Below the pieces are notes generated by a model. It was not told where the DNA came from and ran no database searches. It worked only from the letters and a program-made list of their open reading frames with translations. DNA of 64,000 nt from Desulfovibrio sp. (GTDB taxonomy: Bacteria > Desulfobacterota > Desulfovibrionia > Desulfovibrionales > Desulfovibrionaceae): contig JAQYWK010000005.1 in assembly GCA_030145055.1 (NCBI GenBank), positions 62,001 to 126,000 of the forward strand, in the 5' to 3' direction. Positions 56,592-62,896 of this stretch are shown one piece after another. Both the position numbers and the translations under genes were made by a program. The stretch's first letter is position 1. Every line of letters starts with the position of its first letter.

Positions 56592-59500
56592 TTATTCCGA
56601 ACCAGTGCGGATCGTGTTCCCTTTATTGTTGCGGATTACAGGGCAGCTTTTGCCCATGCACTCCAGATTAGTGGTCATTTGGGTGCACACCATATGCTCG
56701 TCTGCAAGAATACGCAAGCCAAGAATTTCATCTGATATCTTTCCGATTGATTTTAGTGCCAACCATGAGTCTCTCTGGCAACATCTTGCAGCCTCTATAT
56801 TCGCGATTAACTCAAGAGCTGCAAGGGTTCCACGCTGTGCAGCCGACCTAGATTTCCCTGTGTATGGGGTGGCTTCTTGAATTGCACTTATGGCCACTCC
56901 AACGCCTATTGCTGCCCCGCAAGCTCCCATGAAGCCGCAAAATCCTCCTGAAATTTTAGATCCACGTGCAATTGCAGTCTCAATTACTTCGTCAGAAATA
57001 GCCCCGCCGCTATTGCGATATACTGCCGTAATTATGCCCGGGACAATGGAATGGTGCTCCGGTCCGTGGATAGGAATTAAAGGGTGACTTCTAATTTTTT
57101 TAAGAAGCGTTATCATGTCCGTTTCTGTGCTACTTATGAGTAAATGAGGAAGAATATCGACGCTGTCTTCCCTGTGACAGTTGTCGCATACGAAATGGTT
57201 GTTTTTGCAGCGAGCATTTGCTTCCCCTGTTTCACCGCAATACTCACAGGTTAATTCTTTATATTCTGTGAAATAATTCAGTTCAGTTCCGCATACCATG
57301 CACCCAGATTTATTTTTAGGGGCTGATTTGGCAGGCGAGGGGAGTTGCAGCTTGGCTGGCTTGTCGAAGTCGTCAGGAGCAGGGCAACAGCATGAACTGC
57401 CGACCATCATATTCGATATCAGTCCGTCATTGTTTAGAACAAAGATCTGTTCTCCTAGGATGTTAGCTTCCTTCTCAGGCACTTCTGTGATGGATCCCGG
57501 TACAAGTAATTCGCCTTGCGCTGTTTGGGCGGTAGCGAAAGGTCCTCTGAACATTATTTTAGTCATTTTCTCGCGAGCTGGCTTAAGAGCAGAGAACGTC
57601 AGCGAGTAAAAATCATGGCCAGCCACAATCCTGTACGGAAATCTTTTGATCATAGAAATAGATTCAAAACCTGCTTCTTCTAACAACCCGACAAGATTTT
57701 TAAGAGTCTGTGCTCCGGCGATACATTCTCCGTGCAAAGTATCATCGTTTCGTATTTCGGGTCCGGGTTCAGTTTCACAGACAACATCAGATATGGTAAG
57801 TCTGCCGCCCGGAGTAAGAATTCTGAACATTTCTGAAAATGTTTTGCGCTTATCAGCCGAGAGGTTGAGCACGCAGTTTGAAAGGAGCAGGTTCGCGCAA
57901 TTATCTTCCAGAGGCAAAGATTCAAGATATCCTTTGCGGAAATCCATATTGTCGTAGCCAAGATTGTTGGCGACTTTCTCTTGTCCTTTTCGCGAGTGAG
58001 CAAGCATAGGGTCTAGCATATCTATCCCTGTAATCCTGCCGGAACTGCCTACCATTTTAGATGCTATGAAACACTCAATACCGCGCCCGCTACCGAGATC
58101 AACGACATGTTCACCTGACTGAATTTCTGCGTCCATGACAGGAGATCCGCAACCGTAACCTCTGAATCTGAATTCATCAGGAATATGATTCATTAACTCA
58201 GGCGCGTAACATGCGGGATTTAAAATATCTTCTTTTGCCGTGTCCGCCGCCGCAGTGTAAAAATCTTTTACAATTGCAAGGCTGTTGTTGCCTGCTACAG
58301 CTAGAAGGCAGTTGGTATGCGTCAGTGCAACTTTGCCGTGTCCCGAGCACTGATCCAGCTTGTCACCCATCTTTAATAGAAGTTTAGGTGAGTCGTGAGT
58401 CTTGCTCTGGGCCGCTTTGTCGGTGATTAATTTCAGCGCGGTTTTTTCATATAGGGGAGAATATGGATCACTGCCTGTAAAATTAGCCCCATGCAACCAA
58501 CTATGGTCCGTGTCACCACCGCCAAGTATCAGCTTGAACGGAGTGGATAGATCCTTACTGCTTGTCTCGCGTATTTTGCTAAGAACAGCGCTGTTCTTCC
58601 AGCTAGCTTCAAGATCCGTTTCAATCGGTGTGGCAAGCTCTGCAATGCCGATAGTCGCGGGGGATGGGTATATGCACTTGTCAGGGCCTACCGCAAAAGA
58701 TTCCCATCCGGCAGTTGATCCATCATGGATGGTTCCGCAGGGCGCAAATATCATGCTCTTGATGGCTTCAATGTTATCTATTGTAACGCCTGTGCGCTCA
58801 CTGGCATCCATCGCGTCAAGTAAATGCGCGTAGATGTCGTCTGGGTGTGCAAAACGCTCAGATTCGCCCCTGCCGCGCACAAAATACCACATGAAGTGAA
58901 CGTTTGATGCTCCAGTTTTAGCTGCAAACTGCACAACATCCTTCATTTCGGCTACATTGGATTTGGTAACGCACATGGAGATGGTGAATGGAATCGACTC
59001 TGATACTAGCCATTTAAGTGATTTACTGAGGGCGGTAAATGCACCCGTCCCTCTTATTTCATCATGTGTGTCCTTGATGCCGTCAACACTGATTTGCAGA
59101 TGACAGCGGTCAAAGTCATAGCGATTTTTGGAAAAGAATTTTTTAGCGTTAAGGCCGTTGGTAAGAATTGCAACATGGTTGGATTCATTCTCAAGAATTC
59201 TACTGATGATTTTGTCTGCACCGGGATGAATAAGTGGCTCTCCGCCTGTCAGCGCAAAAAGTTTGCAGCCAAGTTTTTCTGCTTGTTCGGTAAGCTCTAA
59301 AACGACCTCTGTCGGGAGTTCCTGCTTTTCCTCGGGCGAGGAGCTGAATAAGCAATGATTACAACTCATGTTGCAATTATTGGTTAGGTGAAACCAGAGT
59401 TCGCGCAGTTTGTTCAGTTGGAGGAGATCTTTCCGGCCCGGATAGGTCGCTGTCGATTCATCAGGAAGTCGTAGCAAAAAACGTTCATCAGCAATTGATA

Positions 59501-59645
59501 AGTATATTTTTTCATCACTTTTAATCTTTTGCAGCAAGGTGTCCCCTGATGGTGTAGGGACAAACCAGTCAGGGGAATCTGCTCTGATATAAACAGGAGT
59601 GTTGTCGTAGGATATTCTGGTCCACTCGGTGAGTTTGAAGGACAA
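56592..59645 (-). CDS. Radical SAM / ArsM-like methyltransferase / DUF5714 fusion
   Basis: A 1017-aa protein with three enzyme-like parts. A radical SAM domain has Cys91, Cys95 and Cys98 (CNMSCNHC) and further cysteines (303, 324, 433, 446) that may bind an auxiliary cluster. A class I methyltransferase (about 465-690) has the SAM motif VVDLGSGRG and matches ArsM arsenite methyltransferases. It keeps the three arsenite-binding cysteines in their contexts: YGCGSP (499), SNCVLNLS (591) and ECIAGA (641). The rest (about 780-1017) has zinc-ribbon-like cysteines and a DUF5714 domain with GFCGFMGACG, AARCC and ECMGKSCP. A CCCP cluster at 752-755 links them. Arsenic or another soft element is the inferred substrate. 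There is no ars operon beside it. Confidence 0.85.
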   Translation of the reverse strand: MSFKLTEWTRISYDNTPVYIRADSPDWFVPTPSGDTLLQKIKSDEKIYLSIADERFLLRLPDESTATYPGRKDLLQLNKLRELWFHLTNNCNMSCNHCLFSSSPEEKQELPTEVVLELTEQAEKLGCKLFALTGGEPLIHPGADKIISRILENESNHVAILTNGLNAKKFFSKNRYDFDRCHLQISVDGIKDTHDEIRGTGAFTALSKSLKWLVSESIPFTISMCVTKSNVAEMKDVVQFAAKTGASNVHFMWYFVRGRGESERFAHPDDIYAHLLDAMDASERTGVTIDNIEAIKSMIFAPCGTIHDGSTAGWESFAVGPDKCIYPSPATIGIAELATPIETDLEASWKNSAVLSKIRETSSKDLSTPFKLILGGGDTDHSWLHGANFTGSDPYSPLYEKTALKLITDKAAQSKTHDSPKLLLKMGDKLDQCSGHGKVALTHTNCLLAVAGNNSLAIVKDFYTAAADTAKEDILNPACYAPELMNHIPDEFRFRGYGCGSPVMDAEIQSGEHVVDLGSGRGIECFIASKMVGSSGRITGIDMLDPMLAHSRKGQEKVANNLGYDNMDFRKGYLESLPLEDNCANLLLSNCVLNLSADKRKTFSEMFRILTPGGRLTISDVVCETEPGPEIRNDDTLHGECIAGAQTLKNLVGLLEEAGFESISMIKRFPYRIVAGHDFYSLTFSALKPAREKMTKIMFRGPFATAQTAQGELLVPGSITEVPEKEANILGEQIFVLNNDGLISNMMVGSSCCCPAPDDFDKPAKLQLPSPAKSAPKNKSGCMVCGTELNYFTEYKELTCEYCGETGEANARCKNNHFVCDNCHREDSVDILPHLLISSTETDMITLLKKIRSHPLIPIHGPEHHSIVPGIITAVYRNSGGAISDEVIETAIARGSKISGGFCGFMGACGAAIGVGVAISAIQEATPYTGKSRSAAQRGTLAALELIANIEAARCCQRDSWLALKSIGKISDEILGLRILADEHMVCTQMTTNLECMGKSCPVIRNNKGNTIRTGSE

Positions 59646-59726: not shown

Positions 59727-60473
59727 TTAAATCAAGGGTTTTGCTAGAACTAGAACCTCAACTCGCTTTGCGCCGGCTTTATAAAGGACTCGTGTGCACT
59801 CGCGGGAAGTTGCTCCTGTAGTGTACACGTCATCAATAAGCAGAATCTTTTTATCCGCAATTATTGAGGTGTCGGCGATGAAAGCTTTCTCCATGTTTTC
59901 CGCACGCTTTTTTTTAGATAGCTCCGTTTGAGGTGTAGTTTTCCGAACTCTCACCAATGCACGGTCAGAAAATTTTGCCCTTAATGTTTTGGCAACACTG
60001 CGCCCGAGAACTACGGACTGATTGAATCCACGATCGCGCAGCCTTGAGATGTGGAGCGGGACAGGGATAATTATATCGGGCTCTGATTCTACTGTAATTT
60101 CTTGAGCTGTGATGCTTGCTAATTGTGATAAAACTGAACCATAGCCGAAGCTTGAACCGAATTTCCAGTCCAGAATTAATTGCCGCAGCAATCCTTCATA
60201 TGGGCCGTAATAATATAGCCTTTTGTGTGGCGGGCTGACTTTTAAACAGTCTGAGCAGAGCAATTCTTTGCTTTCATTAATGGATATGTTTACGCCGCAT
60301 AAGGAACACAAAATGCCAGTTTTTTCAATGATCTCGTCTGCGCATTCTTTGCATATGAGAGTAGCCATTGAATGAGGCGTGCGGCAGACAGGGCATCTTT
60401 TTTCAAAGAAAATTGAACGGAATCTATCCAGTGCGGCAGAAGGTGAAAAGTTTGAGAGCAGGCCGGAGATCAT
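59727..60473 (-). CDS. comF: ComF-family phosphoribosyltransferase-like protein
   Basis: A 248-aa protein. The N-terminal zinc ribbon has CPVC/CKEC and CSLC/CSDC pairs. The C-terminal phosphoribosyltransferase domain has the PRPP loop ILLIDDVYTTGAT (near residue 210) and VPLHISRLRDRGFNQS. ComF proteins are linked to DNA uptake in some bacteria and to stress functions in others; the substrate is not known. It starts three bases after the receiver gene. Confidence 0.9.
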   Translation of the reverse strand: MISGLLSNFSPSAALDRFRSIFFEKRCPVCRTPHSMATLICKECADEIIEKTGILCSLCGVNISINESKELLCSDCLKVSPPHKRLYYYGPYEGLLRQLILDWKFGSSFGYGSVLSQLASITAQEITVESEPDIIIPVPLHISRLRDRGFNQSVVLGRSVAKTLRAKFSDRALVRVRKTTPQTELSKKKRAENMEKAFIADTSIIADKKILLIDDVYTTGATSRECTRVLYKAGAKRVEVLVLAKPLI

Positions 60474-60476
60474 AGT

Positions 60477-60860
60477 TTACTGAGAGTCGTGAAATCTGGA
60501 AATTATTTTAGTTAGCTCAGTCTTTGCGATGGGTTTGATCAAGAAACTATTGTATCCGCAATCCAGACACTCGGTGAGCAGGGCTGCTTTGTCTCCGGTA
60601 GTCATAGCAAATATGGGCAAAGTCATTCCTTGTTCTCGAACTTTTGCTACTACTTCAGTTCCGTTCATTTCCGGCATGTGAACATCCATCAATGCCAAAT
60701 CGAAATCTGTACTGGTGAGTTGCTCCAGAGCCTCTTTACCATTCTCCACGAAAACTGGTTTAATGCCCATCTGTGCCAGATAAGTTTTAAGCACAAGGCG
60801 TACAGGCTTAGAGTCTTCAGCTACCAATATTCTCAAATTTGAATTGTCGCTATTGTTCAC
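60477..60860 (-). CDS. Single-domain response regulator
   Basis: A 127-aa CheY-like receiver without output domain. VAEDSKPVR holds the acidic pair, LMDVHMPEMNG the phospho-acceptor Asp (residue 59), MTTGD the switch Thr and LIKPIAK the Lys. I start at GTG 60860, which has AAAGGAG upstream and overlaps the preceding stop as GTGA. The longer frame to 60914 only reads the preceding gene. No kinase is adjacent. Confidence 0.88.
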   Translation of the reverse strand: MNNSDNSNLRILVAEDSKPVRLVLKTYLAQMGIKPVFVENGKEALEQLTSTDFDLALMDVHMPEMNGTEVVAKVREQGMTLPIFAMTTGDKAALLTECLDCGYNSFLIKPIAKTELTKIISRFHDSQ

Positions 60861-61459
60861 GGATTGAGACTCCTTTCCCATGCTTGAGTTCCTGCTTGAA
60901 TCAACAATTGGCACTTTTCGGGATCGCCTTTTAAGTCTTGCGGGGAGTCAATTCCCCTGAATGTTATGGTCGACTCTAGGGCAACTTTGAAAAATTTAAG
61001 GAAAAATTTCAAGGTAAGTTCTGCGCCATCAAAGAGTTTTTCGCCCCGTGGTCTACCCGCAACTAAACACGCGTAGGAGACCCTTTCTTGCAGCTTAGCT
61101 ATTTGCGATTCGGATTGATTCATGGCTTCAAACGCCCATTGCCCACGGTCTATAAATGTCTTTAGTCGTGAGGGAAGATGGTAGAAATATATGGGAGCAG
61201 CAAAGAAAGTGAAAGGGGCGTCAATGATCTTTTGGTAAAGCCGTTGAGCTTCATCTTTTTTAGCAAATATGCAGATGTTGTCTTTGGAAGTTCGGCATTT
61301 CAAGCAGCCCATGCAGTGATGAAAATCAAGGTCTCCAATATAAACAATTTCTGCGTCACCACCGGCTTTGCGAATTCCATCAAGGAAAAGGGACGCAGCA
61401 TAGTCGCTGTTACCCTCTCTATGATGGCTGCACGCAAATATTATCGGAAGTTGTGTCAT
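60857..61459 (-). CDS. NAD(P)H-dependent flavodoxin-fold oxidoreductase
   Basis: A 200-aa protein of the flavodoxin/iron-sulfur-flavoprotein group. FACSHHREGNSDYA forms the FMN phosphate loop. CMGCLKCRTSKDNIC, with four cysteines near residue 49, is the cluster or redox motif of the group, and AAPIYFYHLPS is the isoalloxazine loop. It lies 40 bases downstream of the selenoprotein gene in one operon, so it may reduce that protein or share its substrate; this is inference. Confidence 0.87.
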   Translation of the reverse strand: MTQLPIIFACSHHREGNSDYAASLFLDGIRKAGGDAEIVYIGDLDFHHCMGCLKCRTSKDNICIFAKKDEAQRLYQKIIDAPFTFFAAPIYFYHLPSRLKTFIDRGQWAFEAMNQSESQIAKLQERVSYACLVAGRPRGEKLFDGAELTLKFFLKFFKVALESTITFRGIDSPQDLKGDPEKCQLLIQAGTQAWERSLNP

Positions 61460-61499: not shown

Positions 61500-61745
61500 T
61501 TAGCCCATTCGTTTTCCGCGTGGATGCGTACATGTGAAAGTGGCTTTCACATGATTTTCTTCCTCTTGAAATTCAACGGACCACTCAGGCAAGATAGCCA
61601 GCAGATGATTTAGCTGTGGCTCAGTTCCTTTATCTACAAGAGCGATAACAATCCGCGTCTTGGCAAAACGGAGATACCAACCTACCTCCTGTCCTACTCC
61701 TCAACACTGATTGCGAACATCAACGATGCGTGGCTTCTCGTCCAT
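61500..61745 (-). CDS. TusA/SirA-like selenoprotein with in-frame UGA
   Basis: An 81-codon gene read through TGA at 61703-61701 as selenocysteine 15. The product begins MDEKPRIVDVRNQCUGVGQ. Strand/helix order matches the TusA fold (beta-alpha-beta-alpha-beta-beta, about 80 aa). Counting from the conserved Asp of LDxxGLxC, Sec15 falls on the catalytic Cys of the CPxP motif, preceded by an extra Cys14; the following Pro is Gly. AGAGGT lies five bases before ATG 61745, and the upstream metallo-hydrolase gene ends 10 bases before it. TusA proteins relay sulfur between enzymes; a Sec form would be a redox or selenium/sulfur carrier. The alternative is a nonsense mutation, but the SECIS-like stem, intact frame and operon argue against it. 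Confidence 0.78.
61670..61689 (-). promoter_or_regulatory. Bacterial SECIS-like stem-loop
   Basis: On the minus strand GGAGGTA (61689-61683) pairs with TATCTCC (61676-61670), seven pairs with one G-U, around loop GGTTGG. The stem begins 11 bases, and its loop 18 bases, after the TGA. The loop opens with two G's, as SelB-binding bacterial SECIS elements require. Confidence 0.7.
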
Positions 61746-61754
61746 TATACACCT

Positions 61755-62378
61755 CTAGAATTGCATGCTGCTGAAAAAAGGATTGTGATTTTTTTCTTCA
61801 CTAACGGTAGTTGCCGGACCATGCCCAGAAAGAAGAGCTGTGTTTCCCGGTAGAGTGAAAATCTGTTCCAGTACAGACTTTTGCAGTAGGGCTGTGTCGC
61901 CGCCTTCAAAGTCTGTTCTGCCTATGGAACGGCGGAAAATAAGGTCGCCAACAAATGCTGATTCAAGGGCCGGGAAATAGAAGGTCAAACTGCCTGGAGC
62001 GTGCCCGGGGGTAGCTAAAACAGTGCATTCAAGGCCGATCATTTCAGTTGTACCAACAGCGATGTCTTTGGATTCGAAGGCTGGAACCTGTATCCCCATC
62101 ATGCTACCATTGCCCACTGACGTATCGAGCACTGAAAGGCCAGAGTCCGCGGCGTAGATGGCCGTGCCAGTTGCTGCAGAGAGTTCGGCGTTGCCAAATA
62201 TATGATCAAAATGAAAATGTGTATTTAGAATGCGATCCAGTTTTATACCCGTCTTTTTGAGGAATTCGAGCACCTGTGCAGGGTCTCCGCCCGGATCAAT
62301 TACAACGGCTCTATTCTCGTTAACTATTACGTAGCAGTTCGTTTCAAGAGGGCCGAGGCCAAAAACTTTAATATCCAT
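61755..62378 (-). CDS. Glyoxalase II-like metallo-beta-lactamase-fold hydrolase
   Basis: A 207-aa soluble protein. THFHFDH (near residue 55) supplies the two-metal site, with later ligands in TPGHAPGSL, VGDLIF and SGHGP. The compact size is that of hydroxyacylglutathione-hydrolase-like proteins of anaerobes. The start shares bases with the nitroreductase stop (TAATG) after a GGAGG, so the two are coupled. It may hydrolyse a thioester made or relayed by the neighbouring selenoprotein; the substrate is unproven. Confidence 0.9.
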   Translation of the reverse strand: MDIKVFGLGPLETNCYVIVNENRAVVIDPGGDPAQVLEFLKKTGIKLDRILNTHFHFDHIFGNAELSAATGTAIYAADSGLSVLDTSVGNGSMMGIQVPAFESKDIAVGTTEMIGLECTVLATPGHAPGSLTFYFPALESAFVGDLIFRRSIGRTDFEGGDTALLQKSVLEQIFTLPGNTALLSGHGPATTVSEEKNHNPFFSSMQF

Positions 62379-62896
62379 TAGTAGTCCTCCAACATTATTT
62401 CAGAAAGATCTTTGCGACTTGATCCGCCTTTCTGGGCGGGGTGACCTACAGCGATTACAGCCTGCAGTTCGTATTTATCGAGTGGGATATTTAAAATTTC
62501 GAGAACCTGCGTTTCCTGATTGAGAATTTCTCCCAGCCATACAGAACCGAGGCCGAGTGAGTGGGCGGCAAGCATCATATTCTGGAGACATGCCCCGATG
62601 GATTGATGATCCTTCATCTCATTATAGATGCGTTCACGTTCGAGAAAAACACAGATTTGCAACTGCGCTGCGTCAGCTATTTTTGAATATTTTGTGCATT
62701 TCGCAACTTGGGCCGCACGTTGATCATTTTTATGTATCACCAAAAAACGCCACGGCTGATTATTAAGGCCGCTGGGCGCCCATCTACCCGCTTCGAGTAT
62801 GTTGGTGATATCTTCGCGTGAAACAGCTTCATCGGTATATTTTCGAATAGAACGTCTGTTTAGCAAAGCTTCGAGAATCGGATTGTCATTGCTCAT
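62378..62896 (-). CDS. Nitroreductase-family FMN oxidoreductase
   Basis: A 172-aa FMN protein. NRRSIRKYTDEAV and APSGLNNQPWRFLVI are the N-terminal FMN-binding motifs, and GLGSVWLGEI is the later one. Members reduce nitro compounds, quinones or iodotyrosines, or tailor small molecules, using NAD(P)H. It heads the overlapping run nitroreductase - hydrolase - selenoprotein - flavodoxin. Confidence 0.9.
   Translation of the reverse strand: MSNDNPILEALLNRRSIRKYTDEAVSREDITNILEAGRWAPSGLNNQPWRFLVIHKNDQRAAQVAKCTKYSKIADAAQLQICVFLERERIYNEMKDHQSIGACLQNMMLAAHSLGLGSVWLGEILNQETQVLEILNIPLDKYELQAVIAVGHPAQKGGSSRKDLSEIMLEDY

Follow-up and report, generated by a model that had tools for sequence, protein, structure and literature searches.

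Does the in-frame TGA at codon 15 of a short minus-strand frame in Desulfovibrio sp. end a gene or encode selenocysteine (Sec), and what might a protein with Sec at that position do? The frame lies near the end of the window, the whole 64,000-nucleotide stretch of DNA that was analyzed, between a metallo-hydrolase gene and a flavodoxin gene, and a sequence-only reading had proposed that it encodes a TusA/SirA-like selenoprotein. When the sequence was re-read, the frame at 61745..61500 (minus strand) was 81 codons long, followed by TAA, and open apart from the TGA at 61701..61703 (minus strand), exactly as had been proposed; the TGA was read as Sec on the basis of its conservation among relatives. 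The candidate product (U, the TGA codon) is MDEKPRIVDVRNQCUGVGQEVGWYLRFAKTRIVIALVDKGTEPQLNHLLAILPEWSVEFQEEENHVKATFTCTHPRGKRMG, with the putative Cys-Sec pair at residues 14 and 15, and sequence, relatives and a structural model all bear on its annotation as a selenoprotein with a predicted TusA-like fold. Under the standard code, no open reading frame of at least 40 amino acids was listed in this frame in the window. The good ribosome-binding site previously described corresponds to GAGG at 61752..61755 (minus strand), ahead of the ATG. The genes on either side were likewise as described, encoding an MBL-fold protein upstream and an FMN_red/flavodoxin-like protein downstream. Operon spacing had been given as 10 and 40 bases: the 40 bases to the ATG of the flavoprotein gene at 61459 stood, and the gap to the hydrolase gene, the stop codon of which ends at 61755, is 9 bases rather than 10.

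A six-frame protein search with a single-sequence query was run against 199 genomes of the same family and found matches in 110 of them, which represent 25 of the 44 genera. These genomes yielded 111 matches, 109 with one or more in-frame TGA codons and two that were Cys paralogues. Seventy of the 111 matches were inspected for the position of the TGA: 68 shared it, and the remainder were the two Cys paralogues without TGA. Twenty loci read from an order-wide search comprised 13 with TGA, one Cys orthologue and six Cys paralogues, bringing the homologues read to 90 in all (81 TGA, one Cys orthologue and eight Cys paralogues). Homologues that ended at the TGA, or carried TAA or TAG there, had been named beforehand as evidence against Sec, and there were none among the 90. 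Cys was encoded directly before TGA in 81 of 81 TGA loci read from both protein searches (TGC in 55, TGT in 26), in keeping with the proposed Cys-Sec pair, and Asp was found six residues before TGA in all 81.

Purifying selection is apparent downstream of the TGA in sequence comparisons: past the hairpin described below (codons 14–55 after TGA), dN/dS was 0–0.19 in eight of ten same-genus pairs, and the remaining two pairs were saturated at synonymous sites. The terminator of the selenoprotein gene was TGA at 39, TAA at 16 and TAG at 15 of 70 loci (including two Cys paralogues). Because 39 of 70 loci end the same gene with TGA, the genetic code is unchanged and TGA is not a general sense codon. 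One copy, in genome G573 (L248 2073-2075, minus strand), kept Cys-TGA and the hairpin and has an extra in-frame TAA approximately 110 bases after the TGA; because of this internal stop, the copy may be dead (a pseudogene) or hold a sequence error. Some large open-frame lengths looked like fusions; the loci read showed upstream read-through, and no fusion was seen among them.

A phylum-wide profile search matched four of 297 genomes, all from the gene's own family, in a set that includes at least 11 genomes of that family and 273 with no listed kinship. The order search matched at least 144 of 247 genomes and added three further families among the matches listed; because two Cys paralogues contribute to its profile, the 144 genomes may have either the Sec or the Cys form, and where candidates were many, part of them were scored. 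A DNA-pattern scan for TGA plus hairpin, which detects TGA versions with this hairpin alone, returned 53 records labeled as Desulfovibrionales genera or families or as unclassified Proteobacteria/Deltaproteobacteria; at least some of these duplicate contigs of the searched genomes, and the sets are not independent. Within these searches, the gene appears to be confined to Desulfovibrionales.

A SECIS-like hairpin, absent from the text of the earlier reading, was predicted by folding and covariation at 61670..61689 (minus strand), 11 bases after the TGA codon, with a 7-pair stem (GGAGGUA/UAUCUCC) and the loop GGUUGG. This upper stem stacks on a second, weaker one below it (44 bases, −15.4 kcal/mol), and fold z-scores for four overlapping stretches of the window were −3.51 (44 bases), −2.57 (49), −3.42 (66) and −1.49 (64). 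A hairpin was present just after TGA in 81 of 81 loci; its stem is unbroken, with at least five pairs, in 66 of them and interrupted or wide-looped in the other 15, and three distant copies (L126, L134 and L138) keep the hairpin with different letters. In 68 sequences (64 distinct), 96.0% of cells were paired and 26 were altered on both sides. In a set of 77 that included distant sequences, which remained after four identical rows of the 81 were dropped, 93.1% of 539 cells were paired and 30 were altered on both sides. With shuffle and slide controls, which leave relatedness among the sequences in place, none of 500 shuffles reached 93.1% pairing or 30 two-sided cells, and slid versions of the hairpin paired in at most 69.2% of cells. 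The two-sided changes were confined to three of the seven pairs, a number reached by 4 of 500 shuffles; the further pair types numbered seven, which was reached by 29 of 500, and the covariation score was 0.173 for the hairpin structure versus 0.156 for a slide of +2.

Compared with synonymous recoding using the codon usage of neighboring genes, the mean z was −1.60, with p ≤ 0.05 in 26 of 62 loci; part of the stem is imposed by the conserved peptide EVGWYL. Codon choice in the hairpin nevertheless supports the view that the RNA itself is constrained: the Ile codon at the sixth position after TGA is ATA in 21 of 26 cases versus 352 of 1973 Ile codons in neighboring genes, and the Leu codon at the tenth position is CTC in 72 of 81 versus 1034 of 5153. 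In the window, the TGA plus hairpin pattern occurs here without mismatch and at one other place with three mismatches. An Rfam search of the region detected neither a SECIS nor any other family; its two snoRNA matches were at chance level.

The machinery for Sec had been expected in this genome, and selA, selB, selC and selD were all present: selA (E 1e-182) and selB, 1.5 kb away, each over the curated cut-off; selC at 80.1 bits (gathering threshold 47); and selD over its cut-off. The selD match (G000:C1:941762-942682) is on a different contig from the window and includes a TGA in frame, which makes SelD a probable selenoprotein in its own right. Across the 199 family genomes, the gene and selA were both matched in 102, the gene only in 8, selA only in 61 and neither in 28 (Fisher p 1e-5 for co-occurrence, relatedness not removed). 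All eight genomes with the gene but no selA match are drafts (69–96% complete), and one of them, G182, has the Cys paralogue only.

Cys homologues, or TGA with a conserved downstream stem, had been named as support for the selenoprotein, and both were found. The sole Cys orthologue read, locus L125 of genome G538, is one codon longer and has Cys-Pro-Cys (CPC): it reads IDLRQACPCTLTRDTSWYLRF, and the congener G492 reads IDLRRVCUGLMRDASWHLRF at the same stretch. It occupies the same operon place, with the MBL match ending at 1976, the gene running to 2213 and the flavoprotein match starting at 2222. No selA candidate and no selB over the cut-off was found in G538 (an 85% complete draft); the congeners G492 (100% complete) and G540 (83%) have TGA, selA and selB, with selA and selB 255 kb apart in G492. 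The absence of selA and selB from G538 could be due to draft incompleteness, in which case CPC would be unexplained, and this is a single case.

Two other readings of the TGA were weighed against Sec. A leader or regulatory peptide, with translation truly ending at TGA and starting independently for the rest of the frame, would fit the mere 14 codons that precede the TGA, but one predicted domain spans both sides of it, and this reading is also at odds with the purifying selection downstream, with the lack of any other stop at codon 15 in the homologues read and with the stop-free Cys version in a relative with no selA or selB detected; we consider it very improbable. Reading of TGA as Cys or Trp, through suppression or a changed code, would leave the frame just as open, but TGA terminates this same gene at more than half of those 70 loci, and the hairpin and the Sec machinery accompany it, so this explanation deserves equally little credence. 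Judging by the comparative genetics, the window gene almost certainly decodes Sec.

AlphaFold structure prediction from 47 aligned rows gave a mean pLDDT of 89.4, a pTM of 0.79 and the order E-H-E-H-E-E; of 53 sequences, three without a start or cut and four with long tails were left out of the alignment. The top rows in VIA-align were TsuB (PDB: 8k1r, Z 10.3), a SirA-like protein (PDB: 3hz7, 10.1) and TsuB (PDB: 8j4c, 10.0), followed by TusA (PDB: 3lvj, 8.8; PDB: 3lvk, 8.5); Smr (8.3, 8.2) and Alba (8.2, 8.0) came below and were tied with TusA. Smr, Alba and the subsequent IF3 C-domain and SepF rows share a common topology and were not taken as relatives. Foldseek placed 3hz7 at rank 3, 8k1r at rank 6 and 3lvj at rank 16, with unrelated proteins (an EPSP-synthase domain and SpoVS) at ranks 1 and 2 and no E-value under 0.001. 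The alignment with 3lvj_C starts at model residue 2 and chain residue 6; if no gap precedes the active site, Sec15 falls on residue 19, which we take to be the TusA catalytic Cys. The Asp-to-Cys spacing of six was likewise seen in the order's TusA-type proteins, in an alignment that left out 10 of 29 PF01206 loci. The earlier count from the conserved Asp, which had placed the TGA on the catalytic Cys, agrees with both this spacing and the model. The protein is therefore predicted to adopt a TusA-like fold, with Sec occupying the catalytic-Cys position. We put the probability that the window gene is a Sec-decoding gene with such a fold at roughly 0.9 and no higher, because TusA itself was tied with Smr and Alba and only TsuB and the SirA-like protein stood clear.

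Sequence searches did not place the protein in a known family. An hhalign comparison with TusA had a probability of 49.5% (E 1.7e-4) over residues 27–73 only, i.e., after the active site, and of 24.4% with the other alignment. For the window protein, no Pfam family and no NCBIfam model matched at E ≤ 1, PHROGs gave no family and PDB sequence searches gave insignificant matches only; among 39 members, four unrelated Pfam families (E 0.07–0.19) and five unrelated NCBIfam families (E 0.08–0.27) were matched by one member each. A TusA control profile recovers the solved TusAs, whereas the new selenoprotein profile does not. The CPxP motif is also missing; in the aligned members, the Sec position is not followed by Pro. 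Lacking both CPxP and a Pfam match, the protein was not filed as a member of TusA (PF01206): the TusA/SirA-like label is supported by the predicted model as a description of fold, and it did not hold as one of family membership. The window protein resembles TusA/SirA-like proteins (PF01206; 3lvj, 3hz7 and TsuB 8k1r) in its predicted beta-alpha-beta-alpha-beta-beta fold and in having Asp six positions ahead of the catalytic residue, but differs from TusA in having Sec for Cys, an extra Cys before it, no CPxP and no Pfam match. Nor is it of the YedF type, having 81 amino acids and one domain, with selD on another contig.

The same profile also caught a Cys paralogue, the window genome's own copy of which (G000:C5; L097 1483-1752) lies directly after mnmE, as it does at two further loci (L141 and L142), and matches no Pfam or NCBIfam family. 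Found in the same genomes, it differs from the window protein in having no TGA and different neighbors. Nine paralogues were read, with Cys at the Sec place and C, T or V as the preceding residue; because the residue before the Cys varies, position 15 appears to be the essential one. The genome's sole PF01206 match (G000:C3:226377-226559) is a 212-amino acid YedF-like protein, and no short TusA was found among its PF01206 matches.

The surroundings of the gene recur. Directly upstream, at 61755..62378 (minus strand), is the MBL-fold hydrolase (Lactamase_B, 207 amino acids), the solved relatives of which include hydroxyacylglutathione hydrolases and the persulfide dioxygenase ETHE1. Directly downstream, at 60857..61459 (minus strand), is the FMN_red/flavodoxin-like protein (200 amino acids), a probable iron-sulfur flavoprotein by domain and motif; its CX2CX2CX7C is reminiscent of the compact cluster motif known from iron-sulfur flavoproteins, and the first three Cys are present in 115 of 115 proteins and the fourth in 114. 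Domain matches identified a nitroreductase (62378..62896), a response-regulator receiver protein (60477..60914) and a comF-like phosphoribosyltransferase (59727..60473), all on the minus strand; the first and last are recurring neighbors, and the receiver protein is a neighbor mainly in the window's own genus. The neighborhood set held 140 anchored loci, eight of which are Cys paralogues without these neighbors. Among the 132 TGA loci, many of which end early at contig or flank ends, the flavoprotein gene lies 179–357 bases after the TGA in 100, the MBL gene is upstream in 92, and comF is found in 92 and the nitroreductase in 71. The 79 TGA loci from the protein search alone gave 62, 60, 61 and 50, respectively. 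Solidesulfovibrio- and Fundidesulfovibrio-type loci have other neighbors instead, and no known sulfur-transfer gene is among the recurring ones. At eight loci, the MBL and selenoprotein genes are approximately 1.1–1.25 kb apart, with room for a further gene.

Seventeen genomes were searched with the flavoprotein to learn whether the neighbors outlast the Sec gene, and one (G015) proved to carry that gene. Of the other 16, in which absence rests on the single-sequence search and inspection by eye, 12 keep the MBL gene directly upstream of the flavoprotein gene and four do not; by eye, no Cys-TGA frame lies between the two genes in those 12. Because 12 of 16 keep the MBL-flavoprotein pair, the Sec gene seems to be a dispensable third component, inserted between two partners that persist.

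Farther downstream in the window (56592-59645, minus strand), a 1017-amino acid protein combines radical SAM, an arsenite-methyltransferase-like methyltransferase domain and DUF5714. Its sub-cut-off NCBIfam matches include the selenoprotein families MbdU and ArsM-UU types, and a relative (70% identity over 1014 amino acids) is also found downstream of the operon at locus L192.

The comparative genetics suggest that the gene product is a 9-kDa selenoprotein, in which codon 15 UGA would be decoded by SelB and Sec-tRNA with the aid of the hairpin directly downstream. In the predicted fold, Sec15 would take the position held in TusA by the sulfur-accepting Cys, with Cys14 beside it. We hypothesized that the protein most likely serves as a small Cys-Sec relay, in which the two adjacent residues would alternate between the selenol/thiol and selenenylsulfide states or, alternatively, Sec would carry a persulfide-like chalcogen. 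From the conserved neighborhood, electrons would likely come from the iron-sulfur-type flavoprotein, and the MBL-fold hydrolase would be a partner producing or consuming the substrate, perhaps acting on a thioester or persulfide. This redox-relay mechanism with the flavoprotein as donor is offered tentatively, at somewhat below even odds. A strict carrier in the TusA sense, with Sec15 taking a sulfur or selenium atom to an acceptor, the MBL protein acting on a persulfide and electron flow secondary, is possible, at odds well short of even. It would suit the predicted placement of Sec at the catalytic-Cys position, the kinship of the MBL protein with ETHE1, a genome with a YedF-like protein as its only PF01206 match and the Cys paralogue directly after mnmE; however, the CPxP motif is absent, the recurring neighbors lack a known sulfur-transfer gene, and the Cys beside Sec at every TGA locus read, together with CPC in the Cys version, suggests a redox pair. 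Indeed, because the Cys-Sec pair is replaced by Cys-Pro-Cys and not by Cys-Cys, a two-residue redox pair is favored. A broader version of the relay proposal is doubtful: a Sec chalcogen/electron relay on a TusA fold, forming a three-part Desulfovibrionales system with the MBL-fold hydrolase and the iron-sulfur flavoprotein, which would handle persulfide- or selenium-containing substrates. In that version, the MBL protein and flavoprotein would work alone where the Sec part is lost, and the selenoprotein would be the first Sec form of the fold in the inventories covered.

The selenoprotein does not appear to be in the published catalogues of bacterial selenoproteins, in the sections covered; supplementary listings may hold it. 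A 2026 inventory counts 119 prokaryotic selenoprotein families (PMC13188914), and its covered sections, including Table 1, have no TusA/SirA entry and none recognizable as the window protein. The words SirA and TusA are absent from the covered text of a 2022 review (PMC9312934) and of the GOS survey (PMC2398784), and the protein is not named in the covered parts of the 2006 lists for Desulfovibrio vulgaris and D. desulfuricans (PMC1794560) or of a stop-codon survey (PMC1914089). Deep-Sep applied to Salidesulfovibrio onnuriiensis IOR2 returned ten known selenoproteins and no new one, according to the portion covered (PMC12013277). A literature search returned no paper joining "sulfurtransferase TusA" with "selenoprotein." The SirA-like selenoproteins that the sequence-only reading attributed to surveys were not corroborated: a term search of six surveys returned no occurrence of "SirA," and in the text covered, the SirA-like proteins tied to selenium are YedF/SirA-type genes near selD or SelD-like genes and are not described as Sec-containing (PMC2432076, PMC5322559, PMC4607533, PMC4210487). 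Like the window protein, those linked to SelD have a TusA-type domain tied to selenium (PMC2432076, PMC5322559), but YedF has two domains (SirA-like and DsrE-like) with CPxP, whereas the window protein has one. An adjacent Cys-Sec pair is shared with the vicinal "CU" selenoproteins in the covered part of the inventory (SaoL, SaoC, HgcA, KCU-star, CopZ-like form 2 and MbdU; PMC13188914); unlike these, the window protein is matched by no NCBIfam model. Its small size, the scarcity of Cys orthologues and the lack of a Pfam domain may be why homology-driven searches missed the family.

These data provide strong comparative evidence that this tiny frame, interrupted by a stop codon in standard annotation, is a genuine selenoprotein gene. 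Sulfate reducers of a large group retain it, mostly next to a gene for a flavoprotein. With it, the 119-family inventory would gain a further selenoprotein family, in well-sequenced bacteria, with Sec predicted at the sulfur-carrier position of a TusA fold and tied to an iron-sulfur-type flavoprotein. G538, in which selA and selB were not detected, would provide a natural replacement of Sec by CPC, and the question of whether the protein is a redox pair or a sulfur carrier becomes directly testable in sulfate reducers.
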